DNA of 40,693 bases from NCBI GenBank assembly GCA_016932035.1, contig JAFGDR010000053.1:1-40693 (forward strand), in the 5' to 3' direction. Shown here one piece after another: positions 11,547-40,159 of this stretch. The position numbers and the translations under genes were made by a program. The stretch's first letter is position 1. Each line of letters opens with the position of its first letter. The stretch is from Candidatus Cloacimonadota bacterium. Its GTDB lineage: Bacteria; Cloacimonadota; Cloacimonadia; JGIOTU-2. The notes below the pieces were generated by a model. The model did not search any database. It was not told where the DNA came from and saw nothing but the letters and a program-made list of their open reading frames with translations.

Positions 11547-14009
11547 CTAGCGGATTAGTGCAAATTTACCATTCACATAGTTTTTCCCAGAATCTGATGA
11601 TATAACGTAGAAATAAATTCCACTTGCAGCATCTTTGCCATTGTTCTTGCCATCCCAGAAAAATCTAAAATGATCTGATTCCCCTATTTCAGCAATGAGT
11701 TCACCTGCAAGATTATAAATGTAAAGAGTATTGATTCCTGCCGGTAGTTTTGCATTGGGTCTGGTTTCAAAATAGACATAAGGATGTTCAGAGGGCTTGA
11801 AAGGATTGGGATAGATCACAATTTTTTCACCACTATCGGTCCCTTGTGTATTATTGATCTGAGCACCGATGTTGAATGAACACATACCCTCAGCGGTTCC
11901 AACATACAATTCACCAGTATAAACATTATGTGCAAATGAGAGAACAGCATTGCTTGGTAGGGATGAATTTTCAGTTGTAAAATTTCTGAAAGTATAGTTC
12001 TCTTCATCAAGAACAGAGATACCACCACCATTCGTGGCTATCCATTTCCTTCCATGCTGATCGACATAGACCTGGTTGATCTGTATTGCTTTTCCTGATC
12101 CCATACGCGGTTCTGGATTACCTTCATCATCATACCAGTAATAATCGTAATTATCCCACTCGATGCCGTTCCAGCGATACATTTTCACGTTTTCAACAAG
12201 CCCGTTCGAATACCTGAACCATTGTTGCCAATAGAAATCATACATATATAATCCATCTACACCGCATGCCCAGAGATAACGTCCATCTTCGGATTCCTGG
12301 TATTCGATATTGAGTATAGGACCGGAAAAGGATGGATTGCCAGCAGGGATGTGAATATCATTGACTATTGGAAATCCTGTTCCATCCCAGTAACGCATCC
12401 CACTATAATATGCACCAAACCAAACCTGACTGTAAGGCAGGAACAGAATTGATATAGGATCCTGTTTGTCATTTGGATGTGATGATGGAACAAAGCCCTG
12501 AAAACCATATACACTATCATCATTCACCACAATTTTAATATCTTTGTTATAGTCACCTATCCACATATTGCCATATTCATCATTTTGCAAAAAGGATATC
12601 GTATTTTCCTCTATGATCCCCGGCACATCACAGGTTGATCTGCTAGTTATCGACTGCCAGAGTTCTGTATCTTCTCCATAATCAGTAATCCTCGTGATAC
12701 CGCTATTCCAGTCACCAACCCATATCCTGTGTCCTAAATCCTGTGTAATCCTGAATGATTTATCACCAACGAGTTTGCTGTTCGTCATATTATATGTAGT
12801 CCAATGATCATTTTCAAGAACTGAGATTCCTTTTACTCCCTGGCGTGCACCTGAGCCGATCAAACCGCTTGCACACCAAAGTCGCTTTTCATGGTCAATG
12901 AAAAGGTATGAAGCAAAATTGAATCCAATACAGTTACGCTTTACATTAATCCATTGTCCACTTTCCAGTGTTTTTCTATACAGATCCTCACCCCATGTTG
13001 AAACCCAGATATTCTGTTCATCATCAATGGCTATGTCAGATATTTGGTCCACGAAATCATTCTCACTATTCCAATGTCTGGGAACCCAACTTAATCCATC
13101 ATATTCATATTGACTTATACCAGCGGCCGCCTCAATTGCCTGTTCATCCTCGTCGAACCAGCCAAATGCTACAATGAATAGTGTGTCTGATACAGGCTGG
13201 ATATCTTGAATATAGACACTTGGTAATGCTGTATTGAATGCTTCATATTCAAAATTATCAGCATGAATATCTTTTATATAAGCAAATCCGTCTTCTGTTC
13301 CAAAATAAATTCTTGAGTTTTGATACGCTATGGTTTTTATCTTATCACTCGCTAGAGGATAGCCAATTGTTGATGAATTAATGTGATTCCAATTTGTACT
13401 TAAGATCATTTCGTCATACACAATCTTCGTGTAATCGATTCCTTCATCAGTAGCTACCCAGATCCTATTACTGTCATCGATAGCTATGCTGTTTACTCTG
13501 TCATGAGAAAGCCAACGCGGTGCAATGAAGGTTTTTTTGAAGATTGGTTTACCACCCAATATGATTTCAAACATAGAAAGTCCATTTTCAGAAGCAACAA
13601 AGATATACTCTCCATTATCATCGATATCATAAATGTAATATCCGTCAATACCTTGATTTTCCTGGTAGGGACTGAGAATTTCACCATTTTTATAGCGCAT
13701 TACTCCTTCAGTAAAGGTGCCAAACCAGTATTCATCGATCTCAGGAATATAATGAACCGACCATAATTCGTTCTTCGCAAGACCATCGCCCTTTGTTATT
13801 GGTATAAAGGTTCCGGTCTCAGTGTCATAAATGCTTACTCCACCCCATGATGCAGATATAACTGAATCTCCTTCACATATCAGTTGATGTATATATGTTG
13901 TATTGGTATACACATTCCAGTTTGCAAGCGAAATATCTTCTGCCTCGTAAGCAAGAGCAGAAAATGATACAAGACAGATCATACATAGTGTAATTGCTGT
14001 TTTTTTCAT
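11547..14009 (-). CDS. Secreted protein with 14 two-component-regulator-type propeller repeats and C-terminal sorting domain
   Basis: The 820-residue protein has a Sec signal peptide (MKKTAITLCM..., cleavage likely after ALA at residue 20). It then carries about 14 repeats of the Reg_prop type, such as RIWVATDEGI, IWVGDWNSGI, MWIGDYNKDI and KWIATNGGGI, enough for two seven-bladed propellers. The C-terminal ~90 residues (YPNPFKPSEHPYV..., LYIYNLAGELI, FFWDGKNNGKDAASGIYFY) form a FlgD-like/type IX-type sorting domain. Such propellers usually form the sensor half of hybrid two-component systems, but no kinase is present here. It is probably exported to the periplasm or cell surface. It overlaps the WecA-type gene by 4 nt and precedes recG. 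Confidence 0.85.
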   Translation of the reverse strand: MKKTAITLCMICLVSFSALAYEAEDISLANWNVYTNTTYIHQLICEGDSVISASWGGVSIYDTETGTFIPITKGDGLAKNELWSVHYIPEIDEYWFGTFTEGVMRYKNGEILSPYQENQGIDGYYIYDIDDNGEYIFVASENGLSMFEIILGGKPIFKKTFIAPRWLSHDRVNSIAIDDSNRIWVATDEGIDYTKIVYDEMILSTNWNHINSSTIGYPLASDKIKTIAYQNSRIYFGTEDGFAYIKDIHADNFEYEAFNTALPSVYIQDIQPVSDTLFIVAFGWFDEDEQAIEAAAGISQYEYDGLSWVPRHWNSENDFVDQISDIAIDDEQNIWVSTWGEDLYRKTLESGQWINVKRNCIGFNFASYLFIDHEKRLWCASGLIGSGARQGVKGISVLENDHWTTYNMTNSKLVGDKSFRITQDLGHRIWVGDWNSGITRITDYGEDTELWQSITSRSTCDVPGIIEENTISFLQNDEYGNMWIGDYNKDIKIVVNDDSVYGFQGFVPSSHPNDKQDPISILFLPYSQVWFGAYYSGMRYWDGTGFPIVNDIHIPAGNPSFSGPILNIEYQESEDGRYLWACGVDGLYMYDFYWQQWFRYSNGLVENVKMYRWNGIEWDNYDYYWYDDEGNPEPRMGSGKAIQINQVYVDQHGRKWIATNGGGISVLDEENYTFRNFTTENSSLPSNAVLSFAHNVYTGELYVGTAEGMCSFNIGAQINNTQGTDSGEKIVIYPNPFKPSEHPYVYFETRPNAKLPAGINTLYIYNLAGELIAEIGESDHFRFFWDGKNNGKDAASGIYFYVISSDSGKNYVNGKFALIR

Positions 14010-30831: not shown

Positions 30832-31791
30832 CTATTTTTTATAGTATTCGATAATTTCTTTGAGGATACGGCTAAGATTTACTTTAGGTTTGTAGTTAAT
30901 GTCGCTTCCTGCTTTTGATATATCAGGAATTCTTTGTTTCATATCCTCGAAGCCCTCTTCATATGCCTCATCATAAGGAATGAGTTTAATTTGCGACTTG
31001 CTGTTAGTAAGCTCCTTGACTTTTTCTGCAAGGTTGTAAATTGAAATTTCTTCATTAGTACCTATATTATATATTTGACCGATACATTTCTCATTTTCCA
31101 TTAACTTAACAATGCCGTCCACAACATCACCCACATAAGCAAAACATCGGGATTGCTTTCCGTCACCATAAACTGTCAGAGGATGGTCGAGAAGTGCCTG
31201 TTGTACAAATCTTGGAACAACCATACCATATTGACCGGTCTGTCTGGGACCTACTGTGTTAAACAATCGAGCGATCACAACAGGTAATTTCTTCTCATGT
31301 AAGTATGCTAATGCAAGGAATTCATCAATGGCTTTGGATTCTGCATACGACCATCTCCTTATCGTAGTAGGACCATATACTCTCATAGCATCTTCTTTAA
31401 ATGGAAGTTCGTCTGATTTACCATATACTTCAGAAGTGGAAGCAATAAAAATCTTCTTCTTATATTTATTTGCTGCTTGAAGTAAGATCTCAGATCCGCC
31501 GACATTTGTCTCAATTGTCTGAACCGGATTATCAACGATAAACCTAACACCAACAGCAGCTGCAAGATGATATATATGATCACAATCCTTAACCAATTCA
31601 TCAACTAATTCGCGATTAAAAATAGTATCTATATGTACTTCCAGGTTCTTATGCCGATAAATATTTTTTATATTGGCAAGCCGTCCAGTAGATAGATTAT
31701 CTAAGACAACTACATAGTGTCCCTTATTCAGCAAGTATTCTGCGAGATATGATCCAATAAAACCCGATCCGCCTGTGATTAAAACTTTCAT
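30832..31791 (-). CDS. NAD-dependent sugar-nucleotide epimerase/dehydratase (extended SDR)
   Basis: The 319-residue protein binds NAD through GGSGFIG at residues 7-13 and has the extended-SDR catalytic set STSE (118-121) and YAESK (Tyr149, Lys153). The STSEVYG...RRWSYAESK region resembles UDP-glucuronate decarboxylase and ArnA-like enzymes more than plain GalE, but this does not fix the reaction. It probably supplies a modified UDP-sugar for the glycan genes. It overlaps the next SDR upstream by 4 nt and precedes smpB by one base. Confidence 0.85.
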   Translation of the reverse strand: MKVLITGGSGFIGSYLAEYLLNKGHYVVVLDNLSTGRLANIKNIYRHKNLEVHIDTIFNRELVDELVKDCDHIYHLAAAVGVRFIVDNPVQTIETNVGGSEILLQAANKYKKKIFIASTSEVYGKSDELPFKEDAMRVYGPTTIRRWSYAESKAIDEFLALAYLHEKKLPVVIARLFNTVGPRQTGQYGMVVPRFVQQALLDHPLTVYGDGKQSRCFAYVGDVVDGIVKLMENEKCIGQIYNIGTNEEISIYNLAEKVKELTNSKSQIKLIPYDEAYEEGFEDMKQRIPDISKAGSDINYKPKVNLSRILKEIIEYYKK

Positions 31792-32732
31792 GAGTTCTCC
31801 TTATTCAATAAAAAATCAATCGTTCTATGTAAGCCTTCTTCGAAAGGAATTTCAACCGTATATCCCAATAATTCATCAGCCTTTTGTATCGAGGCGAACG
31901 AGTGTTTAACATCTCCGCTTCTCGCTTCAGCAAAAAGTGGTTGGACATCTCTTTCCAAATATTTATTAATCATTTCAACCAGTTCTAATAGCGTTGTACT
32001 ATCATGGCAGGCAATATTGATAACCTGTCCAGCAGCTTTTGGAGCTGTACATGCAAGCAAATTAGCATTTATAACGTTCTGAATAAATGTAAAATCCCTC
32101 GATTGTAATCCGTCTCCGTAAATCGTAGGTTGTATATTTTCAGAAATCAGTTTAATAAATTTTGGTATGACTGCACTGTACTGGGAAAAAGGATCTTGAT
32201 TTGGTCCAAATACATTGAAATATCTAAGACATACCGTTTCTAGCCCATAAATCATTGTATGTATCTGGCAGTAACGTTCGGCTGTATATTTTGAAAGAGC
32301 ATATGGCGAAAGGGGACGAATGAACATATCTTCTCTTTTCGGAAGTTCTTCACTATCACCATAAATTGAAGAAGATGAAGCATAAACGATTCTTTTAATA
32401 TTAAATTCACGAGCTGCTTCCAGGATATTAAGTGTTCCCAGGATATTTACATCGTTCGTTGTAATCGGATCATTTATTGAGCGTGGAACCGATGGAAGAG
32501 CTCCTTGGTGAAGGATAAAATCAATTCCTCTCACCGCATCTCGAACCGTATGAAAACTCCTGAGGTCACCTTCGATTAACTCAAAATTAGAATTAGTCAT
32601 AAAGGATAATATATTATCTCTTTTACCCGTAGAGAAGTTATCAAGAACACGTACTTCTTCTCCTCTCCTGAGAAGTTCTTGTACAATATTCGAACCAATA
32701 AAACCGGCACCGCCAGTAACTAAATATTTCAT
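31788..32732 (-). CDS. UDP-GlcNAc/UDP-glucose 4-epimerase-like SDR (WbpP type)
   Basis: The 314-residue protein has GGAGFIG at 7-13, an ASSSSIYG triad region at 118-125, and YALSK (Tyr144, Lys148). The GALPSVPRSINDPITTNDVN stretch matches the WbpP/GalE-like 4-epimerases that act on UDP-N-acetylhexosamines. The start at 32732 is set by AAGGAG 5 nt upstream; an upstream in-frame start would add nine non-family residues (MKYYYQGDC). It follows a 104-nt AT-rich gap and overlaps the next SDR by 4 nt. The likely product is an epimerised UDP-HexNAc for the glycan block. Confidence 0.86.
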   Translation of the reverse strand: MKYLVTGGAGFIGSNIVQELLRRGEEVRVLDNFSTGKRDNILSFMTNSNFELIEGDLRSFHTVRDAVRGIDFILHQGALPSVPRSINDPITTNDVNILGTLNILEAAREFNIKRIVYASSSSIYGDSEELPKREDMFIRPLSPYALSKYTAERYCQIHTMIYGLETVCLRYFNVFGPNQDPFSQYSAVIPKFIKLISENIQPTIYGDGLQSRDFTFIQNVINANLLACTAPKAAGQVINIACHDSTTLLELVEMINKYLERDVQPLFAEARSGDVKHSFASIQKADELLGYTVEIPFEEGLHRTIDFLLNKENS

Positions 32733-32737
32733 GCAAT

Positions 32738-32743
32738 CTCCTT
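32738..32743 (-). promoter_or_regulatory. Ribosome binding site that fixes the WbpP-type SDR start
   Basis: AAGGAG on the minus strand ends 5 nt before ATG 32732 and lies inside the longer open frame starting at 32759, so it supports the shorter protein. Confidence 0.75.
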
Positions 32744-32836
32744 GATAATAGTACTTCAATGACGATAGTAAGCTTTTTTATGCAAGTTTTTCCTATCTCT
32801 GTAAATAATATTATAATAATCTTTATAAAATAGTAA

Positions 32837-33820
32837 TTATCTTACTTGAATTCCTCTCTCTTTATAATACCACTCAATCGTCCGTGTAATCTCTTCCTCT
32901 ATAGTATAACACTGTTTGTAACCGAGTTCTCTTATTTTCTCCGCTCTATAGTCAGTTGATGTCGCAAATTTTTTCATCCTATCACTATTTATTGGGAGAT
33001 CTTTATGAACTATTTTTCCGATAACATCAAATATTTTACCAATACCAACGGCGAGACCTAATGGAATGCGGATATAGGGCATATGGAATCCCTTATGGCT
33101 CGCAATGATCTCCATAAGTTTGTGGAGCGTTATATATGGTTTATCGATACAATTATATGCTTGTATACCAGGTTTAAAATGAGACATTATAAAATATGTC
33201 ATATCAACAAGATTTGCCAAAGATACAATCGACTTGATGTGATTACATTCTCCGATAGTAAAATAGGGTTTTCTATATAGCGTATCAACGAGGTTATACA
33301 TATTTGCATAATTATATGGTCCGTAAATAATTGTGGGTCGCAAGAAAATCACTTCGCGCGAAACATCCTCTTTCCACCATTCTTCAATGACTATCTCTCC
33401 TGCTAGCTTTGCTTCACCATAGATAGTATTTGGCAGATGATCCGCAGATTCGTCGCATGGATGATCCTGGTGACCGTAAATAGAAACTGTGCTGTAATAT
33501 ATTATTTTTGGAATGCTCTTCCGGGTCATGAAATCAGTTAATACTTTGGTTCCATATTCATTGGTGCTGAAATAACTTTCTTGAGAAATTCCAAAATCGT
33601 GTTTTTCTGCGGCACAGTGAATTACCAGGTCAAAATCGATACTATCGAACTGCTCATAATCTTCTGTATTTCGGATATCCCCCCTTCGATTGTTTGGATG
33701 TTTTTCAATTAAACAAGACTCATCTCTATCAATACCCCAGACTGTATGTCCCTTTTCTTCAAGAAACCATATCAAACGTGATCCAACAAATCCTGTTGAT
33801 CCTGTAATAAAAATATTCAT
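32837..33820 (-). CDS. NAD-dependent epimerase/dehydratase-like SDR
   Basis: The 327-residue protein begins MNIFITGSTGFVGSRLI with the Rossmann glycine motif, keeps YYSTVSIYG, and has YGEAK as the Tyr-x3-Lys pair. It resembles the SDRs that reduce or epimerise nucleotide sugars or lipid-linked sugars next to WbuB-type transferases. ATG 33820 is preferred: GGAG at 33826-33829 precedes it by 5 nt, while a TTG at 33823 would sit closer. The gene shares one base with the stop of the GT gene upstream (TGATG). Its substrate is unknown. Confidence 0.83.
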   Translation of the reverse strand: MNIFITGSTGFVGSRLIWFLEEKGHTVWGIDRDESCLIEKHPNNRRGDIRNTEDYEQFDSIDFDLVIHCAAEKHDFGISQESYFSTNEYGTKVLTDFMTRKSIPKIIYYSTVSIYGHQDHPCDESADHLPNTIYGEAKLAGEIVIEEWWKEDVSREVIFLRPTIIYGPYNYANMYNLVDTLYRKPYFTIGECNHIKSIVSLANLVDMTYFIMSHFKPGIQAYNCIDKPYITLHKLMEIIASHKGFHMPYIRIPLGLAVGIGKIFDVIGKIVHKDLPINSDRMKKFATSTDYRAEKIRELGYKQCYTIEEEITRTIEWYYKERGIQVR

Positions 33821-35052
33821 CAATACTCCAAAATTAATAAATTCGAGATTATTGTTTCAATCTTGGCTGCAAGAACCTTTCTATCATAGTTTTTTTCAAC
33901 GAACCTTCTTCCAATTTTACCCATTTGATTCAGATTTTCTCTGTTTTTTAACAACATTATTTTTTCAGTTAAATCGTTGTGTTCTTCAGGTTCATAAAAA
34001 TAACCAGCTTTACTCTCTTCAAGAATAGCACGGGCTTCCCCATCTACACCAATGAGTACTGGAACCTCGCAAGCCAGATAGTCGAAAAGTTTTGAAGGTA
34101 TCGTACCTTTAAAGACATTAGACTTGATCAATGGAACGATCCCACAATCTGCAATGGAAAGAAATCGTGCAATTTCCTCTCGGGGCTGTTCCTCAATAAA
34201 CACTACATTTATAAGATGTAAGTCTTTATGAATGCTATGCAATTTCTCCCGTTCGGGACCATCACCAATAATTAGGAATTGTATGTCTTTTGTATCTTTT
34301 AGAATATTTGCTGCTTTTAAGATCGTTTCAACACCTTGCGCAAGACCGAGATTACCAGCATACATCACGACAAATTTATTATCAGGATTATATTTCATTT
34401 CTAGATCAGTAGTATCCTGCACCCGACTCCAATTACTGATATCAGTTCCATTTCTTACAACATTGAGTTTATTGATGTTAACACCTTTTTTATTTATTTC
34501 ATCTCGAAAATAATATGTTACAGGAATAACTGAATCTGCTAATATATAACATTCTTTTGCTAACTTAGTACTTAATTTAATAAACTTAGGATTATTAAGT
34601 TCACCCATCTCAACTGCAACATCAGGCCATAGATCTCTTACTTCAAAAATAAACTTTATCTTGGGGAATAGTCTTTTGATTGTGATTCCAATTCCACCTA
34701 CAAAAAGCGGAGGAGAAGAAACAAATACAAGATCATAATCGCGCCAGGTAAGCAGAGCTGTTAACAGTCCAAATATCATAAATGATATATAAAAAAGGAT
34801 TCGAGTGATGAAATTTTTCTTTGGGGATGTATATATCCACGTCCTCAGCACATCAAATCCATCCATATTTTCATGAATGAATATTTTCTTTCGATATGGT
34901 TTAAAAATTATACCCCGTGGATGATTGGGCATCTCGGTGAGGACTGTGACGTGATGTCCACTATCACTCAAATGCTTTATTGTTGCATAAGCACGATTAG
35001 ACGGAGCACAGGTTTCCGGTAAAAAATATTGTGTTATATACAAGATTTTCAT
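33820..35052 (-). CDS. WbuB-like GT4 glycosyltransferase
   Basis: The 410-residue protein opens with MKILYITQYFLPETCAPSNRAY and has TEMPNHPRGIIFKPYR, FVSSPPLFVGGIG, and FEVRDLWPDVAVEMG, all hallmarks of the WbuB/WbpH-like GT4 group that transfers L-FucNAc or similar amino sugars to lipid-linked acceptors. The donor half has VMYAGNLGLAQGVETILKAA and IPSKLFDYLACEVPVLIG, without the E-x7-E motif. It is coupled to the SDR (1 nt) and the heparinase-like gene (4 nt). Donor identity is an inference. Confidence 0.88.
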   Translation of the reverse strand: MKILYITQYFLPETCAPSNRAYATIKHLSDSGHHVTVLTEMPNHPRGIIFKPYRKKIFIHENMDGFDVLRTWIYTSPKKNFITRILFYISFMIFGLLTALLTWRDYDLVFVSSPPLFVGGIGITIKRLFPKIKFIFEVRDLWPDVAVEMGELNNPKFIKLSTKLAKECYILADSVIPVTYYFRDEINKKGVNINKLNVVRNGTDISNWSRVQDTTDLEMKYNPDNKFVVMYAGNLGLAQGVETILKAANILKDTKDIQFLIIGDGPEREKLHSIHKDLHLINVVFIEEQPREEIARFLSIADCGIVPLIKSNVFKGTIPSKLFDYLACEVPVLIGVDGEARAILEESKAGYFYEPEEHNDLTEKIMLLKNRENLNQMGKIGRRFVEKNYDRKVLAAKIETIISNLLILEY

Positions 35053-36611
35053 AGAGCTCGAATTCTTGTTTCCAAAAATTTTGTGTCCACAAATCTACCT
35101 GATACAATTAATGTATCTTTATCCTCTTTTATATACATCTTCGGAAAGAGAGAAGTTTTCTCACCAACTATATTTTCATCCGATAGGATAAACTCCATAT
35201 TATTATCAATAATTACGTTATTCTCAGACAGTTGAATCGAACAGTTGGGAGAAAAATGAAAAAACATTCGAAATGCATGTTCTCCTGTTGCAAGCAGGAT
35301 GTCTCGAATGATGATTGCATCATTCTCGATTTTAATCTCTCTGCTATGGCTGATATTACGAAATTTATACGTACAACGAATTAATTTGCTGGAAATTTCA
35401 GGCTCAGTAATAAATGCACGATTCCCTACCCGGAATGCTTTCCACATTTCTGCCTGATCACTTGAATCAATCTCGATCGTATTATGAGCTTTTGTTGATC
35501 GAGAATATGCTCTTTCATCGCTTTCAGAATAGGTATAATTGCCTGTATCAACCAAGATCCGCTTGCCATTATACCAAAGAAGAACAGAGTTTATATCTGC
35601 GTGTGAGTGGGAAGGATTGTATGGTGGATTGAAAGGAGCACAACACATCATTATTTTCATACTTCCATTATTGATCGTGGGATAATAACTTGAATGTTGA
35701 TTCTTCTTGCTATTAATTCCTAACACCTGAGCTAACTTAATAATCTCATCAGGTTGAGGAGTATCCTGATAATTTACATCATTTATAGGAAGATAGCCCT
35801 CTTTATCATAATAATACTGATTCCAATAAAGCGCTGAACTGGTCACATTTTGCAGATTTCTCACTGTTTCGTTATTGACGTTACAATCATTATTTGACAG
35901 CAAGTTATACACATTAAGTAGATCCTTGGTAAAAATCGCATGATAGGTTGGAGAAAATTCAAAATGATATCCCTCTTTAGTGATTTGCTCATCAATTTGT
36001 TTATTTAGATCATGAAGCGCCCATTGAAACCACTTTTTATTGCTGAAAACATATCCTAAATACAATAAAGCAACAATATTCTTAAAGAAATGATTTGCAA
36101 GAAGATGGAATTCTCTTTGATGATACAACCAGATTCCCTGCAGATGAAGGGAATTGTATATCGTTTGATCCTTAATATCAAATTTTGCAATGAATTTGAT
36201 CCAATTTACCACTCTGATCGAAATTGTATAAGGATCCCATTCAATAGAATCAGATGGCGGATTTTCATGAATCCAGTTGAGAATAATATCTAAACCTGTT
36301 CCTTTGTCGATACCTAAAATGAAATCATTATAATGAAGATGATATTGGAATAAAGTATCGTTTATATGCTCTTTCCAATTTATATGAGTTAGATCGATAG
36401 AATCATTAAATAATTTATATTTACGATCTGCGTATTCTCGAATTTTGGGAATTATAAGTTTTGGTATATGTAATGAAGATGGTGGTTTGCAGTTTTTTTT
36501 GAATGCACACAGGTATTGTCTTTGACATCTCAACCATATCCTCGAAAGGAATTGTATTACATTAATATACCTCAAGGAATGAAAATAACAAGAGCACCTG
36601 GATAAAAACAT
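35049..36611 (-). CDS. Heparinase II/III family protein
   Basis: The 520-residue protein has an (alpha/alpha)-toroid N-terminal part (about residues 50-300, with LNWIHENPPSDSIEWDPYTISIRV and ANHFFKNIVALLYLGYVF) and a C-terminal beta-sheet part with NPSHSHADINSVLLWYNGKRILVDTGNY and STKAHNTIEID, the conserved core of heparinase II/III-like lyases. These lyases cut uronate-containing polysaccharides by beta-elimination. No clear signal peptide is present, though the first 40 residues are rich in Cys and hydrophobic residues. It sits between the oxidoreductase (1-nt overlap) and the WbuB-like GT, as in many exopolysaccharide loci. It may edit the glycan made here. Confidence 0.85.
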   Translation of the reverse strand: MFLSRCSCYFHSLRYINVIQFLSRIWLRCQRQYLCAFKKNCKPPSSLHIPKLIIPKIREYADRKYKLFNDSIDLTHINWKEHINDTLFQYHLHYNDFILGIDKGTGLDIILNWIHENPPSDSIEWDPYTISIRVVNWIKFIAKFDIKDQTIYNSLHLQGIWLYHQREFHLLANHFFKNIVALLYLGYVFSNKKWFQWALHDLNKQIDEQITKEGYHFEFSPTYHAIFTKDLLNVYNLLSNNDCNVNNETVRNLQNVTSSALYWNQYYYDKEGYLPINDVNYQDTPQPDEIIKLAQVLGINSKKNQHSSYYPTINNGSMKIMMCCAPFNPPYNPSHSHADINSVLLWYNGKRILVDTGNYTYSESDERAYSRSTKAHNTIEIDSSDQAEMWKAFRVGNRAFITEPEISSKLIRCTYKFRNISHSREIKIENDAIIIRDILLATGEHAFRMFFHFSPNCSIQLSENNVIIDNNMEFILSDENIVGEKTSLFPKMYIKEDKDTLIVSGRFVDTKFLETRIRAL

Positions 36612-38749
36612 TATATCTTGAGTGCAAGTCCCGTCTTTATTGATTCCATTGCGCGAATTGTCGTCAATGTAGTGATATATAGGTCGTTAAATGCAATAGG
36701 TGATGATTTTCCATTTCTGATTGCATTGAAAAACTGAGAATATTCTTCCAAGAAACCCTTATTCTGACCTTTTGAGGAATATGATGTCTTCTTGCCATCA
36801 TGATATAACTCGGTTTTGTAGAAGTTATACATCTTAGCAGTTTTGTTTCCAGAACTTGCTTCAAAATACTCCTTAGGTAAAGAGCGATCACCAACGGCAT
36901 GATATGTAATACAACCGATCGAACCATCTGCAAATTTGATTGTAATTTGTACAGAATCGTCATTATTGTATAGTATATCATCTGTGTTTACTGAAATCGC
37001 ATAAACCTCTATTGGATCACTCTGACAAATTGATTGCATAAAATCTATAAAATGACAGCCTTCTCCGATTATTCGACCTCCGCCAATTTCAAGATTTTGA
37101 GTCCAATGTTCTGGAGGTATTGCTCCCGCATTTATCAAGTAGTTCATAACCAATGGTGTTCCGGAATTTTGCATGAACTCTTGTATCTTTTTTGCATGTG
37201 AAGAAAATCTTCTATTGAAACCTACCAGGATAGAAACATCTGACTTTTCATATATTTCCTTGATTTTCTTGAGTTGTTCTTCGTTCATAGCTAAGGGTTT
37301 TTCAACAAATACATTTTTACCTGATTTAATGCAATCAATTGCTAGTCCTGTATGAGTATTATGGGGAGTTGTGATCATAACTGTATTTATGCTATCATCT
37401 TTGAGTATTTCGTTGAGATCTGAAGAAACCTGTGAAAATCCGAATTTTTTTCCGATATGTGTTGCAATTGATGTGTCAAAATCTATTAGGGCTGTAAGAT
37501 TGGCATCGGTTTTACGCAAAAATGGTAATGCTACAGATTGACAAAAATTACCAGCACCAATAACTGCAAGATTAATACTTCCCGATTTATTATGTGCATT
37601 GAGCTCAACAGTACTCTTTTTATACTCGATTTCTGAATACTCTAAAACAATGCCAAGATAAGGTTCTTTTTTCTTACCAGTTAGTAGTTCATAAGCTTCA
37701 AGCACATTGGTGAAATCAAAAACGTGCGAAATAAGTTTTTCCGGAGTGATTTTTTTCTGAGAAATAAGGTTAAGAATAGCTTCCATATTCCTTTGTTCAG
37801 TCCAGCGCACAAAAGAATAGGGATAATCTATACCTCCTTCTTCATATGAAGGATCATATCTTCCAGGTCCATATGACATTGATAGTTTACATTCAAGTTC
37901 TTTTTTATAATAGAGATCTCTCGGAATTTCTATCGGAAACATTCCTACGATGATGACCCTCCCCCTTATTCTGCACAATTCGCCAGCACTGGTCATAAGA
38001 GATGGAGATGTCGTTGAAGCAGTAATGATAACGCCATCAACACCTCTGCCCTCTGTAAATTCCTGAACAGCTTCAACCATATCTGCATTTTGGACGGCAG
38101 CATCAGCACCCATTTCCTTAGCAAGCTCCAATTTAGCTTTCGCGATATCTATTGCTATAACATTGCATCCGTTCGCCTTGAGTAGCTGGATTGTGATTTG
38201 TCCTATAAGACCTGCTCCAATAACGGCGATCTTCTCGCCGAGTGTTGGGTTCAATTGCCGAACACCCTGAAGTGCAATAGCGGCTACTGTGGTAAAAGAT
38301 GCTTGCTGATAACTGACATTCTCAGGTATTTTTACAACTAAATTACCTGGAACAAAGTTTATTTCTGCATGACTTGCATAACCTGCTCCAGCACATGCCA
38401 CTCTGTCTCCCGGTTGGATATCTTTGACATTCTTACCTGACATACATACTTCACCAGCACACGAATAACCAAGAGCAACTGGCGAATCGAGTTTGCTAAA
38501 AACTTTTTCAAGAGTTGGTTTTAATCCATCACGCTTGATTTTTTCCATAACCTGTTTGACCAAATCCGGTCTTGCTTGTGCTTTACCAACCAGGGATTTT
38601 TTTGCTAGATCGATCATAAGTTTTTCTGTACCTGCAGAGACGAGTGATGCTTTTGTTTCTACAAGGACTCCATTGTTTCCACAACCTGGTATGGGCACTT
38701 CAACGACTTCCATTTTTCCTGTTTTATATGATTGTATCAGTTGTTTCAT
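36611..38749 (-). CDS. Two-domain oxidoreductase: MDR (alcohol-dehydrogenase-like) fused to Gfo/Idh/MocA
   Basis: The 712-residue protein has an MDR domain (about 1-370) with GYSCAGEV, PGDRVACAGAGYASHAE and the nucleotide site VIGAGLIGQIT. The usual zinc ligands near GHE are not visible. Then comes a Gfo/Idh/MocA domain (about 390-712) with VIGAGNFCQSVALPF, the active-site EKP (VFVEKPLA) and GEGCHFIDF. This fused architecture is a known bi-domain family of polysaccharide gene clusters, with no firmly known reaction. An RBS (GGAG at about 38759-38762) precedes the start. It overlaps the heparinase-like gene by one base. It probably makes or modifies a nucleotide-linked or polymer-linked sugar. 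Confidence 0.9.
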   Translation of the reverse strand: MKQLIQSYKTGKMEVVEVPIPGCGNNGVLVETKASLVSAGTEKLMIDLAKKSLVGKAQARPDLVKQVMEKIKRDGLKPTLEKVFSKLDSPVALGYSCAGEVCMSGKNVKDIQPGDRVACAGAGYASHAEINFVPGNLVVKIPENVSYQQASFTTVAAIALQGVRQLNPTLGEKIAVIGAGLIGQITIQLLKANGCNVIAIDIAKAKLELAKEMGADAAVQNADMVEAVQEFTEGRGVDGVIITASTTSPSLMTSAGELCRIRGRVIIVGMFPIEIPRDLYYKKELECKLSMSYGPGRYDPSYEEGGIDYPYSFVRWTEQRNMEAILNLISQKKITPEKLISHVFDFTNVLEAYELLTGKKKEPYLGIVLEYSEIEYKKSTVELNAHNKSGSINLAVIGAGNFCQSVALPFLRKTDANLTALIDFDTSIATHIGKKFGFSQVSSDLNEILKDDSINTVMITTPHNTHTGLAIDCIKSGKNVFVEKPLAMNEEQLKKIKEIYEKSDVSILVGFNRRFSSHAKKIQEFMQNSGTPLVMNYLINAGAIPPEHWTQNLEIGGGRIIGEGCHFIDFMQSICQSDPIEVYAISVNTDDILYNNDDSVQITIKFADGSIGCITYHAVGDRSLPKEYFEASSGNKTAKMYNFYKTELYHDGKKTSYSSKGQNKGFLEEYSQFFNAIRNGKSSPIAFNDLYITTLTTIRAMESIKTGLALKI

Positions 38750-38794: not shown

Positions 38795-40132
38795 CTACTG
38801 GTCAAGAATGGTACTTTTATCATCAACTTTGATCATTGAATCATTGATATTTTCAAGAACATTTCTACTGATCTTATTTGATGGGCTATTGTCTTTAATG
38901 AGTATATTATATCGAATGATTTTATCATTTTTTAGTGTTGTAACAATTTGATTATCCGTGATAGTATTATTCGTTGAGAGTGGTTCATCTGGTTTGTATT
39001 GTGCCACAGAAATCTCACCTGTTTCAAATTTATTGATATTGGTTAGATGAGAATAAATATTGTTATTCATAATAAAATTAGTCTCGATGGTACACCTCTG
39101 AGAAGAAAAGACAGCGATACCTTTTCCATTATTATTTTCAACAGAATTCTTTGACACAAGTAAGCCGTCTGATCTCCAGAGACAAATTCCAACATCACCT
39201 CCATAAGCAACATAATTTGACTCAATTACGCCGATAGAGCAATCATATGCTCCAATCATATCGGCATTTCCACCATCCTGAAAAGGAAGGGAGTTACCGA
39301 TAAGAGTGTTATTTGAAATCAGGATATTTTTATGACGAATCCCGCCACCAGTTGATAATCTAATAGGATGACCTGCAAATCCAGTACCCCCGATATCACT
39401 CATAAAATTATTACTGATAATAATGCTTCGAGTATAACTTTTTTTCTCACCACTCCCCTGGAAATCGATAGCCATATTTGCTATTGAGTAAAAAACACTA
39501 TTAGATATTTTAATATTTTCTGCATTATCTGTTGTTCTAATTCCATAATAATAATTATGAAAAGTGCAATTAGAAATTTCAACATCCTTTACCAATACTT
39601 CTTTTTCATCTCCCTTGATCCATACAGCATAATCATTTTTTTTGATATTTTTGAAAACTTCGCAGTTTTTGATTGATATATTCTGTATGAGCTGACCATC
39701 AGGATCAATCTTAAAAGCATGGAACGAATCGCGATCAATTAATGAGCAATCGATTATTAGATCAGAAATATGTACATTACTTCCTTTAATAAAAAAGCAA
39801 TTGCCACCTGTAAAATCTTTCGATAATTGAACATATACCTTCCCGCGATTCGCTGAAATTGATATTTCCGAAGGTATAGTTACAGTTTTTGATATTAGTA
39901 TTACTGAATTAAATGGAATAATAATTTCACTAATTCCTTTATCCTCTGCATCCTTAAGAGCTTGTATAAAGGATTCATGGGAAATCATATTTCCTATACC
40001 TTCGATATATGTTCCTAGATTGATCTCCTTCTGCTTCATATTAGATTGAGATGATTTAGCATACAATGCAATAGAAAAAGCTAAAAAAATTAATAAAAAA
40101 AATACAATTAAGATTTTTACATTGATTTTCAT
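38795..40132 (-). CDS. Secreted right-handed parallel beta-helix protein
   Basis: The 445-residue protein starts with a signal peptide or membrane anchor (MKINVKILIVFFLLIFLAFS). About ten beta-helix coils follow, such as IKNCEVFKNI, ISNCTFHNYYYGI, ISNSVFYSIANMAI, ISNNTLIGN and ETNFIMNNN, with Asn at turn positions. This is the NosD/pectate-lyase-like fold (Beta_helix), found in polysaccharide lyases, epimerases and adhesins; no catalytic set stands out. ATG 40132 is favoured over 40141 because an AAAGGA site (about 40141-40146) is 8 nt upstream of it. It lies 45 nt before the oxidoreductase and may process or bind the glycan outside the cell. Confidence 0.82.
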   Translation of the reverse strand: MKINVKILIVFFLLIFLAFSIALYAKSSQSNMKQKEINLGTYIEGIGNMISHESFIQALKDAEDKGISEIIIPFNSVILISKTVTIPSEISISANRGKVYVQLSKDFTGGNCFFIKGSNVHISDLIIDCSLIDRDSFHAFKIDPDGQLIQNISIKNCEVFKNIKKNDYAVWIKGDEKEVLVKDVEISNCTFHNYYYGIRTTDNAENIKISNSVFYSIANMAIDFQGSGEKKSYTRSIIISNNFMSDIGGTGFAGHPIRLSTGGGIRHKNILISNNTLIGNSLPFQDGGNADMIGAYDCSIGVIESNYVAYGGDVGICLWRSDGLLVSKNSVENNNGKGIAVFSSQRCTIETNFIMNNNIYSHLTNINKFETGEISVAQYKPDEPLSTNNTITDNQIVTTLKNDKIIRYNILIKDNSPSNKISRNVLENINDSMIKVDDKSTILDQ

Positions 40133-40159
40133 GATATTCATCCTTTCTTTATAGAGTTA

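Follow-up and report, generated by a model that had tools for sequence, protein, structure and literature searches.

A fused oxidoreductase and a heparinase-like protein in a conserved, mobile cassette with a probable role in bacterial surface-sugar synthesis

Described relatives of the pair

A gene for a fused oxidoreductase next to a gene for a heparinase-like protein is a described though poorly explained arrangement, with relatives in Pseudomonas and Vibrio. In Pseudomonas aeruginosa PA14, zbdP-hepP (PA14_23420/23430) is an operon of proven co-transcription that encodes a fusion of MDR and Gfo/Idh/MocA domains and, after an 8-nt gap, a heparinase II/III protein lacking a type 1 export signal and negative for a signal in PSORTb (PMC5732420). 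On assay plates, recombinant HepP gave a positive result for heparinase activity, and a zbdP insertion mutant formed a normal pellicle and had near-normal virulence, which a hepP mutant did not (PMC5732420). That study read hepP as a virulence heparinase, not as half of a polysaccharide synthesis pair, and found DNA matching zbdP-hepP in only three strains, one of them named by serotype O10, with O-antigen not mentioned (PMC5732420). The PA14 O-antigen repeat is -4)-a-L-GalNAcA-(1-3)-a-D-QuiNAc-(1-3)-a-L-Rha- (PMC2997053).

In Vibrio vulnificus YJ016, deletion of either the zinc-binding dehydrogenase gene VV0357 or the heparinase-like gene VV0358 abolishes capsule (PMC6037467). Acinetobacter K loci contain adjacent gnlA-gnlB genes, with gnlB once alone, that are predicted to serve UDP-L-GalNAcA synthesis after the emulsan genes for WeeE/WeeF (PMC9676051); one paper gives D-GalNAcA, not the L form, for the RAG-1 polymer. 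For Vibrio cholerae VPS, L-GulNAcA was proposed to arise from D-ManNAcA by C5 inversion (PMC3901696). Papers on Sphingomonas and Actinoplanes EPS contain no mention of a heparinase or bi-domain gene.

The Cloacimonadota locus and its proteins

The window analyzed here is a 40,693-nt contig (JAFGDR010000053.1) from a Candidatus Cloacimonadota bacterium. Four of its minus-strand genes encode a bi-domain oxidoreductase (FUS; 712 aa, 36611..38749), a heparinase II/III-like protein (HEP; 520 aa, 35049..36611), a glycosyltransferase closest to the WbuB/WcaI type (GT4; 410 aa, 33820..35052), and an extended NAD-dependent epimerase/dehydratase (SDR; 32837..33820). Reading the junctions base by base confirmed an initial annotation of same-direction genes overlapping by 1, 4, and 1 nt: 'ATATAATG' for FUS/HEP (1 nt at 36611), 'CTATGA' for HEP/GT4 (4 nt, 35049-35052), and 'TATTGATGAAT' for GT4/SDR (1 nt at 33820, with an ATG start for the SDR at 33820; the alternative start from the ORF tool is a TTG at 33823, one codon outward). 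The range assigned to all four genes, 33820-38749, covers only three and leaves the SDR outside. The overlap of FUS and HEP differs from the gap in PA14, but the order of an MDR-Gfo/Idh/MocA fusion followed by a signal-less heparinase II/III protein is the same in the architecture described there.

The four genes lie in an operon-like series of a glycosyltransferase, a beta-helix protein, FUS, HEP, GT4, SDR, a TviC-like SDR, a UXS-like SDR, and smpB; those before smpB are all on the minus strand. The glycosyltransferase is a C-terminal part truncated at the contig end (40160..40693). Immediately upstream of FUS, the right-handed beta-helix protein (38795..40141; Beta_helix and NosD matches) has a signal-like, hydrophobic N-terminal segment, and it is possible that this is a periplasmic polymer-modifying enzyme of the AlgG-like fold class. 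Downstream, a probable continuation of the operon encodes a TviC-like SDR of the UDP-HexNAcA 4-epimerase family (31788..32759; NF011728 at 266 bits, under the cut-off of 760) and a UXS/LegB-like SDR (30832..31791). The same strand continues with genes for glycosyltransferases, a flippase, and a transferase of the initiating type (PF00953). At the end of this polysaccharide gene run, 11547-14009 encodes a beta-propeller protein of 820 aa with a weak match to the CHU_C domain of type IX secretion.

FUS combines the Pfam domains ADH_zinc_N (E 8e-23) and GFO_IDH_MocA (E 7e-26) in one chain of ~710 aa, with the MDR half N-terminal (residues ~1-375, 37625..38749) and the Gfo/Idh/MocA half C-terminal (residues ~392-712, 36614..37576). 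Eighty homologues matched FUS over all or nearly all of its length, with identities of 39-58%. This architecture, found with Pfam and NCBIfam searches, and the full-length homology make FUS a member of the RefSeq 'bi-domain-containing oxidoreductase' group, and plasmid genes so named cover 95-100% of the query. The fusion had been put forward as the best candidate for a little-described system, a view that was not supported: besides its RefSeq name, the FUS-HEP pair corresponds in architecture to zbdP-hepP (PMC5732420) and very probably to VV0357/VV0358, described as a zinc-binding-type dehydrogenase and a heparinase II/III-like protein near a capsule cluster (PMC6037467).

An alignment of 32 FUS homologues identified an NAD motif (G178/G180/G183 and D201) in the NAD-type Rossmann MDR half, and invariant G398, G400, E483-K484-P485, H566, and D569 in the other half, as in the Gfo/Idh/MocA family. 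The zinc ligands of MDR enzymes (the Cys in xCGTD, and GHE) were not recognizable in FUS; SAGTE and GYS occupy these places and are conserved across the 32 homologues, so the name 'zinc-binding' is misleading for this protein. Residues 292-323 (window positions about 37781-37876) read SYGPGRYDPxYEExGxDYPxxxVRWTEQRNME and are invariant in nearly all 32 fusion proteins. This block is likely a substrate loop usable as a family signature. The AF2 model of FUS (pLDDT 90) has its lowest confidence at residues 294-296, inside the block. The best Foldseek matches of the model include KanD2, levoglucosan dehydrogenase, and further Gfo/Idh/MocA sugar oxidoreductases, several of which act at C3. A role as a sugar enzyme, proposed from the start, is supported, with a nucleotide- or lipid-linked sugar as the most likely substrate.

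HEP belongs to the heparinase II/III superfamily (Pfam Hepar_II_III_C, E 1e-35, and Hepar_II_III_N, E 1e-9). N173, Y223, and H335, its putative catalytic residues, align with an Asn, a Tyr, and a His of established catalytic role in the PDB entry for heparinase III (HepIII) and are invariant together with D339 in 16 homologues. In a set of 41 sequences, N173, H174, Y223, H224, H335, and D339 were retained in nearly all. Foldseek ranked PL12 HepIII first and PL17 lyases next for the AF2 model (pLDDT 87). The nearest solved structures are all lyases, a point counted against the reading of HEP as a C5-epimerase.

Heparinase III and PL17 alginate lyases are secreted degradative enzymes. HEP shares their fold and their N/Y/H arrangement, but it is signal-less and located in synthesis operons. 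In a simple hydropathy test, which is not a trained predictor, a signal-peptide-like hydrophobic segment rose above threshold in 0 of 40 HEP relatives. The N terminus of HEP is cytoplasmic-type, and this test of the 40 relatives gave no signal peptide or lipoprotein anchor of the kind that marks a secreted polysaccharide lyase. Nor does HEP qualify as the heparin/heparan lyase HepC, scoring 36.6 bits against NF045573 (cut-off 700) and 30.4 bits against NF045572 (cut-off 600).

GT4 matched Glycos_transf_1 (Pfam, E 5e-24), and its best NCBIfam match was the WcaI subfamily (PRK10307) at 181.7 bits, below the cut-off of 276; an E. coli gene annotated as WbuB scored 184.0. The SDR matched the NAD-dependent epimerase family (Pfam, E 2e-30). 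Domain searches upheld the original calls of an MDR-Gfo/Idh/MocA fusion, a heparinase II/III protein, and an SDR, with WcaI/WbuB as the kind closest to GT4.

Co-inheritance and gene neighborhoods

The initial annotation regarded these genes as a joint polysaccharide synthesis module, a view that rarity of shared genomes would refute. Rarity was not found. FUS and HEP are co-inherited, occurring together far above chance in three groups and sharing 32 genomes. The 125 genomes of the window's phylum included 9 with FUS, 8 with HEP, and 6 with both (0.58 expected, P 5e-7); among 321 Gammaproteobacteria, centered on a genome titled Gammaproteobacteria bacterium (L082), the counts were 27, 19, and 15 (1.6 expected, P 3e-15), with all P values in this comparison assuming independent genomes, which related genomes are not. 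Among 289 Alphaproteobacteria, centered on a genome titled Sphingomonas (L073), FUS was found in 15, HEP in 30, and both in 11 (1.6 expected, P 2e-9), a test that is looser for orthology because the 30 HEP genomes take in ~200-bit matches that may represent another heparinase family. A stronger point than the P values is adjacency across distant phyla: the two genes adjoin in 26 of the 32 shared genomes (6/6 in the window's phylum, 7/11 in Alphaproteobacteria, and 13/15 in Gammaproteobacteria).

Of the 80 FUS loci taken from named genomes, 21 have HEP close by in the same orientation, mostly right beside FUS, and 14 of the 21 also have a full-length GT4 of this type. A GT4 of the WbuB type lies beside HEP on the chromosome and on plasmids of E. 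coli, in Citrobacter, and in gamma- and alphaproteobacterial loci, also where FUS is absent, as in E. coli wecB-wecC-...-HEP-GT4 clusters. The GT4 orthologue comes after HEP in loci of E. coli and Citrobacter and elsewhere, and CP016036 annotates it as 'glycosyltransferase WbuB'. Two genomes of the window's own family likewise have the SDR after GT4. One (G116) keeps the order FUS-HEP-GT4-SDR, with FUS split across two contig ends, and the other (G123) has HEP-GT4-SDR-UXS-smpB without FUS. These counts and gene orders define HEP-GT4 as a core, FUS as a frequent addition, and the SDR as a local partner. In the four-gene unit first proposed, the SDR is conserved alongside the other three genes only in the window's family.

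Several related cassettes include WecB, called as TIGR00236 above cut-off. The order is FUS-WecB-HEP in three loci (L173, L182, and L186), FUS-HEP-GT4-WecB-WecC in L185, and FUS-HEP-wecC-wecB in Parabacteroides; WecB lies within the FUS-HEP cassette of L166, and Citrobacter, like E. coli, has wecB-wecC...HEP-GT4 without FUS. The FUS frame is broken by a single TAG in L185 (genome G216) and by a single TGA in L166 (genome G621), suggesting from the reading frames that these copies are decayed or mis-assembled.

The E. coli wecB-wecC-...-HEP-WbuB O-antigen clusters (CP162190 and CP026755; IncC plasmids CP016036 and CP034402) resemble the window in having HEP followed by a WbuB-type GT4 and differ in lacking FUS and in containing the UDP-ManNAcA genes. 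On the conjugative IncC plasmids CP016036 (L103) and CP034402 (L104), the polysaccharide cluster is an O-antigen-like wecB-wecC-(DUF2837)-wzy-GT-HEP-WbuB run beside IS26 copies. Other E. coli plasmids carry the HEP DNA of these two loci at 100% identity, and Enterobacter plasmids carry a closely matching HEP. The overlapping genes are a conserved, mobile cassette, probably for bacterial surface-sugar synthesis.

FUS also occurs apart from HEP, in 59 of the 80 loci, mostly Bacteroidota. Near FUS in 41 of the 80 loci (e.g., L005:11112-12299), usually beside WecG, was a ~396-aa toroid-type protein (cluster 3), possibly the Bacteroidota counterpart of HEP. Its Pfam matches were weak only (Pec_lyase, GH88, and C5-epim_C), and a PDB sequence search gave none. 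As a heparinase relative it was rejected, with an hhalign probability of 0.3%; given this value and the weak Pfam matches, it was kept as a separate toroid-type protein and not merged with HEP.

Proposed chemistry and its alternatives

Co-inheritance, gene content, intact sites, and a cytoplasmic-type N terminus are the basis for regarding FUS-HEP-GT4 as a module, one that probably builds sugars in the cytoplasm rather than degrading them. We infer the substrates, the level at which the enzymes act (nucleotide or lipid-linked), and the carbon inverted by each. The module would be the cytoplasmic part of an O-antigen, capsule, or EPS operon, making and placing an uncommon hexosaminuronic (or uronic) acid in the L configuration.

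Synthesis would start from a nucleotide-activated D-HexNAcA, with UDP-GlcNAc as its precursor and a C2 epimerase of the WecB type plus a 6-dehydrogenase as the enzymes that form it. FUS would then invert C3, its Gfo/Idh/MocA half oxidizing C3 and its NAD-dependent MDR half serving in a second redox step. The proton next to the carboxylate, H5, is the one that heparinases remove, and the heparinase-type N/Y/H site of HEP would abstract it to invert C5, most likely on a UDP-sugar or lipid-linked oligosaccharide, before the WbuB-type GT4 transfers or extends the L residue. Dermatan sulfate epimerase, a eukaryotic enzyme acting on GlcA, is a heparinase-type fold working as a polymer C5-epimerase, and the mode proposed for HEP would be the same: a lyase fold, H5 abstraction, and re-protonation. 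The SDR and the TviC- and UXS-like SDRs would be further sugar-nucleotide enzymes of the window operon.

A comparison of configurations showed that converting D-gluco into L-galacto takes inversion at C2, C3, and C5 and nowhere else, and that L-gulo is reached by inverting C2 and C5. Set beside cassette gene content, the simplest reading is WecB for C2, FUS for C3, and HEP for C5. In PA14, the best-matched case, the product would be L-GalNAcA, or D-GlcNAcA inverted at C2, C3, and C5; where HEP and WecBC occur without FUS, it would be L-GulNAcA. The L-hexosaminuronic reading draws on co-occurrence, HEP-GT4 pairing, WecB in the cassettes, L-GalNAcA in the PA14 O-antigen, capsule loss in V. vulnificus, the L-GulNAcA C5-inversion proposal, and the near-invariant HEP site with no signal peptide. 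It also draws on the gnlA-gnlB prediction, these genes and weeE-weeF being, by description, adjacent two-gene capsule modules like FUS-HEP whose second gene can stand alone.

The specific scheme, with C3 redox or epimerization by FUS, C5 epimerization by HEP, and GT4 acting on the resulting L-hexosaminuronic acid, is offered tentatively, as a real possibility still short of an even chance. It is held there by the plate activity of recombinant HepP, the D-GalNAcA given for RAG-1, the Bacteroidota FUS loci that lack HEP, and the zbdP mutant, whose difference from the hepP mutant is unexpected if both genes serve one sugar. For the window itself, the absence of WecB and WecC from the contig also counts against an L-hexosaminuronic product; WecB and a UDP-glucose-dehydrogenase-type enzyme are present elsewhere in the genome. 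A second contig (C20), carrying WecB/Ugd/GalE, was rejected as a neighbor because its start does not extend the truncated glycosyltransferase gene.

Alternatively, HEP could be a genuine uronate lyase, trimming or removing chains that have stalled or been assembled wrongly, as AlgL does in alginate systems, while FUS makes a rare sugar independently. AlgL-type clearing enzymes are periplasmic, whereas none of the 40 HEP relatives has a signal peptide, and HEP keeps company with a glycosyltransferase and HexNAcA-forming enzymes. The fold and intact lyase site agree with such a role, heparinase activity of recombinant HepP on plates makes a lyase reaction possible (PMC5732420), and a lyase role was suggested by the V. 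vulnificus authors, whose deletion nevertheless left no capsule at all (PMC6037467). With signal-less relatives, an assembly-operon setting, and capsule loss on deletion, the polymer-editing lyase envisaged in the initial annotation becomes less likely, and we regard this alternative as unlikely.

A second alternative, also improbable though to be taken seriously, is that FUS alone makes the sugar nucleotide, with a UDP-sugar as the substrate of its two redox steps, and that HEP-GT4 is a separate unit often co-traveling because both serve acidic polysaccharides. HEP-GT4 does exist without FUS, and most Bacteroidota FUS loci have another alpha/alpha-toroid-type protein nearby in place of HEP. 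This sits poorly with how strongly FUS and HEP are associated across genomes and with their lying side by side in several distant phyla, and it is compatible with sequential C3 and C5 inversion if the enzymes act one after the other. That HEP is a catalytically dead, structural or chaperone-like subunit of GT4 would fit its adjoining GT4 in many loci but is very improbable, since near-universal retention of the six residues named above, from N173 to D339, is unexpected for a dead enzyme.

The pattern as a whole suggests that HEP takes part in making a rare acidic sugar of mirror-image form rather than degrading sugars. A wider proposal, conceivable but rather doubtful at present, is that a heparinase-fold cytoplasmic C5-epimerase and a two-in-one C3-epimerase form a general bacterial route, used in many phyla, that starts at D-GlcNAcA/D-ManNAcA and leads to L-GalNAcA where FUS is present and to L-GulNAcA where it is not, and that hepP-type 'heparinases' are then O-antigen enzymes. 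If true, this would assign reactions to the very common 'bi-domain-containing oxidoreductase' and to the 'heparinase II/III' or 'alginate lyase family protein' of O-antigen and capsule clusters, and would explain the biosynthesis of L-hexosaminuronic acids. hepP would no longer be read as a host-attacking heparinase, and the presence of L-GalNAcA or L-GulNAcA would become predictable from gene content.
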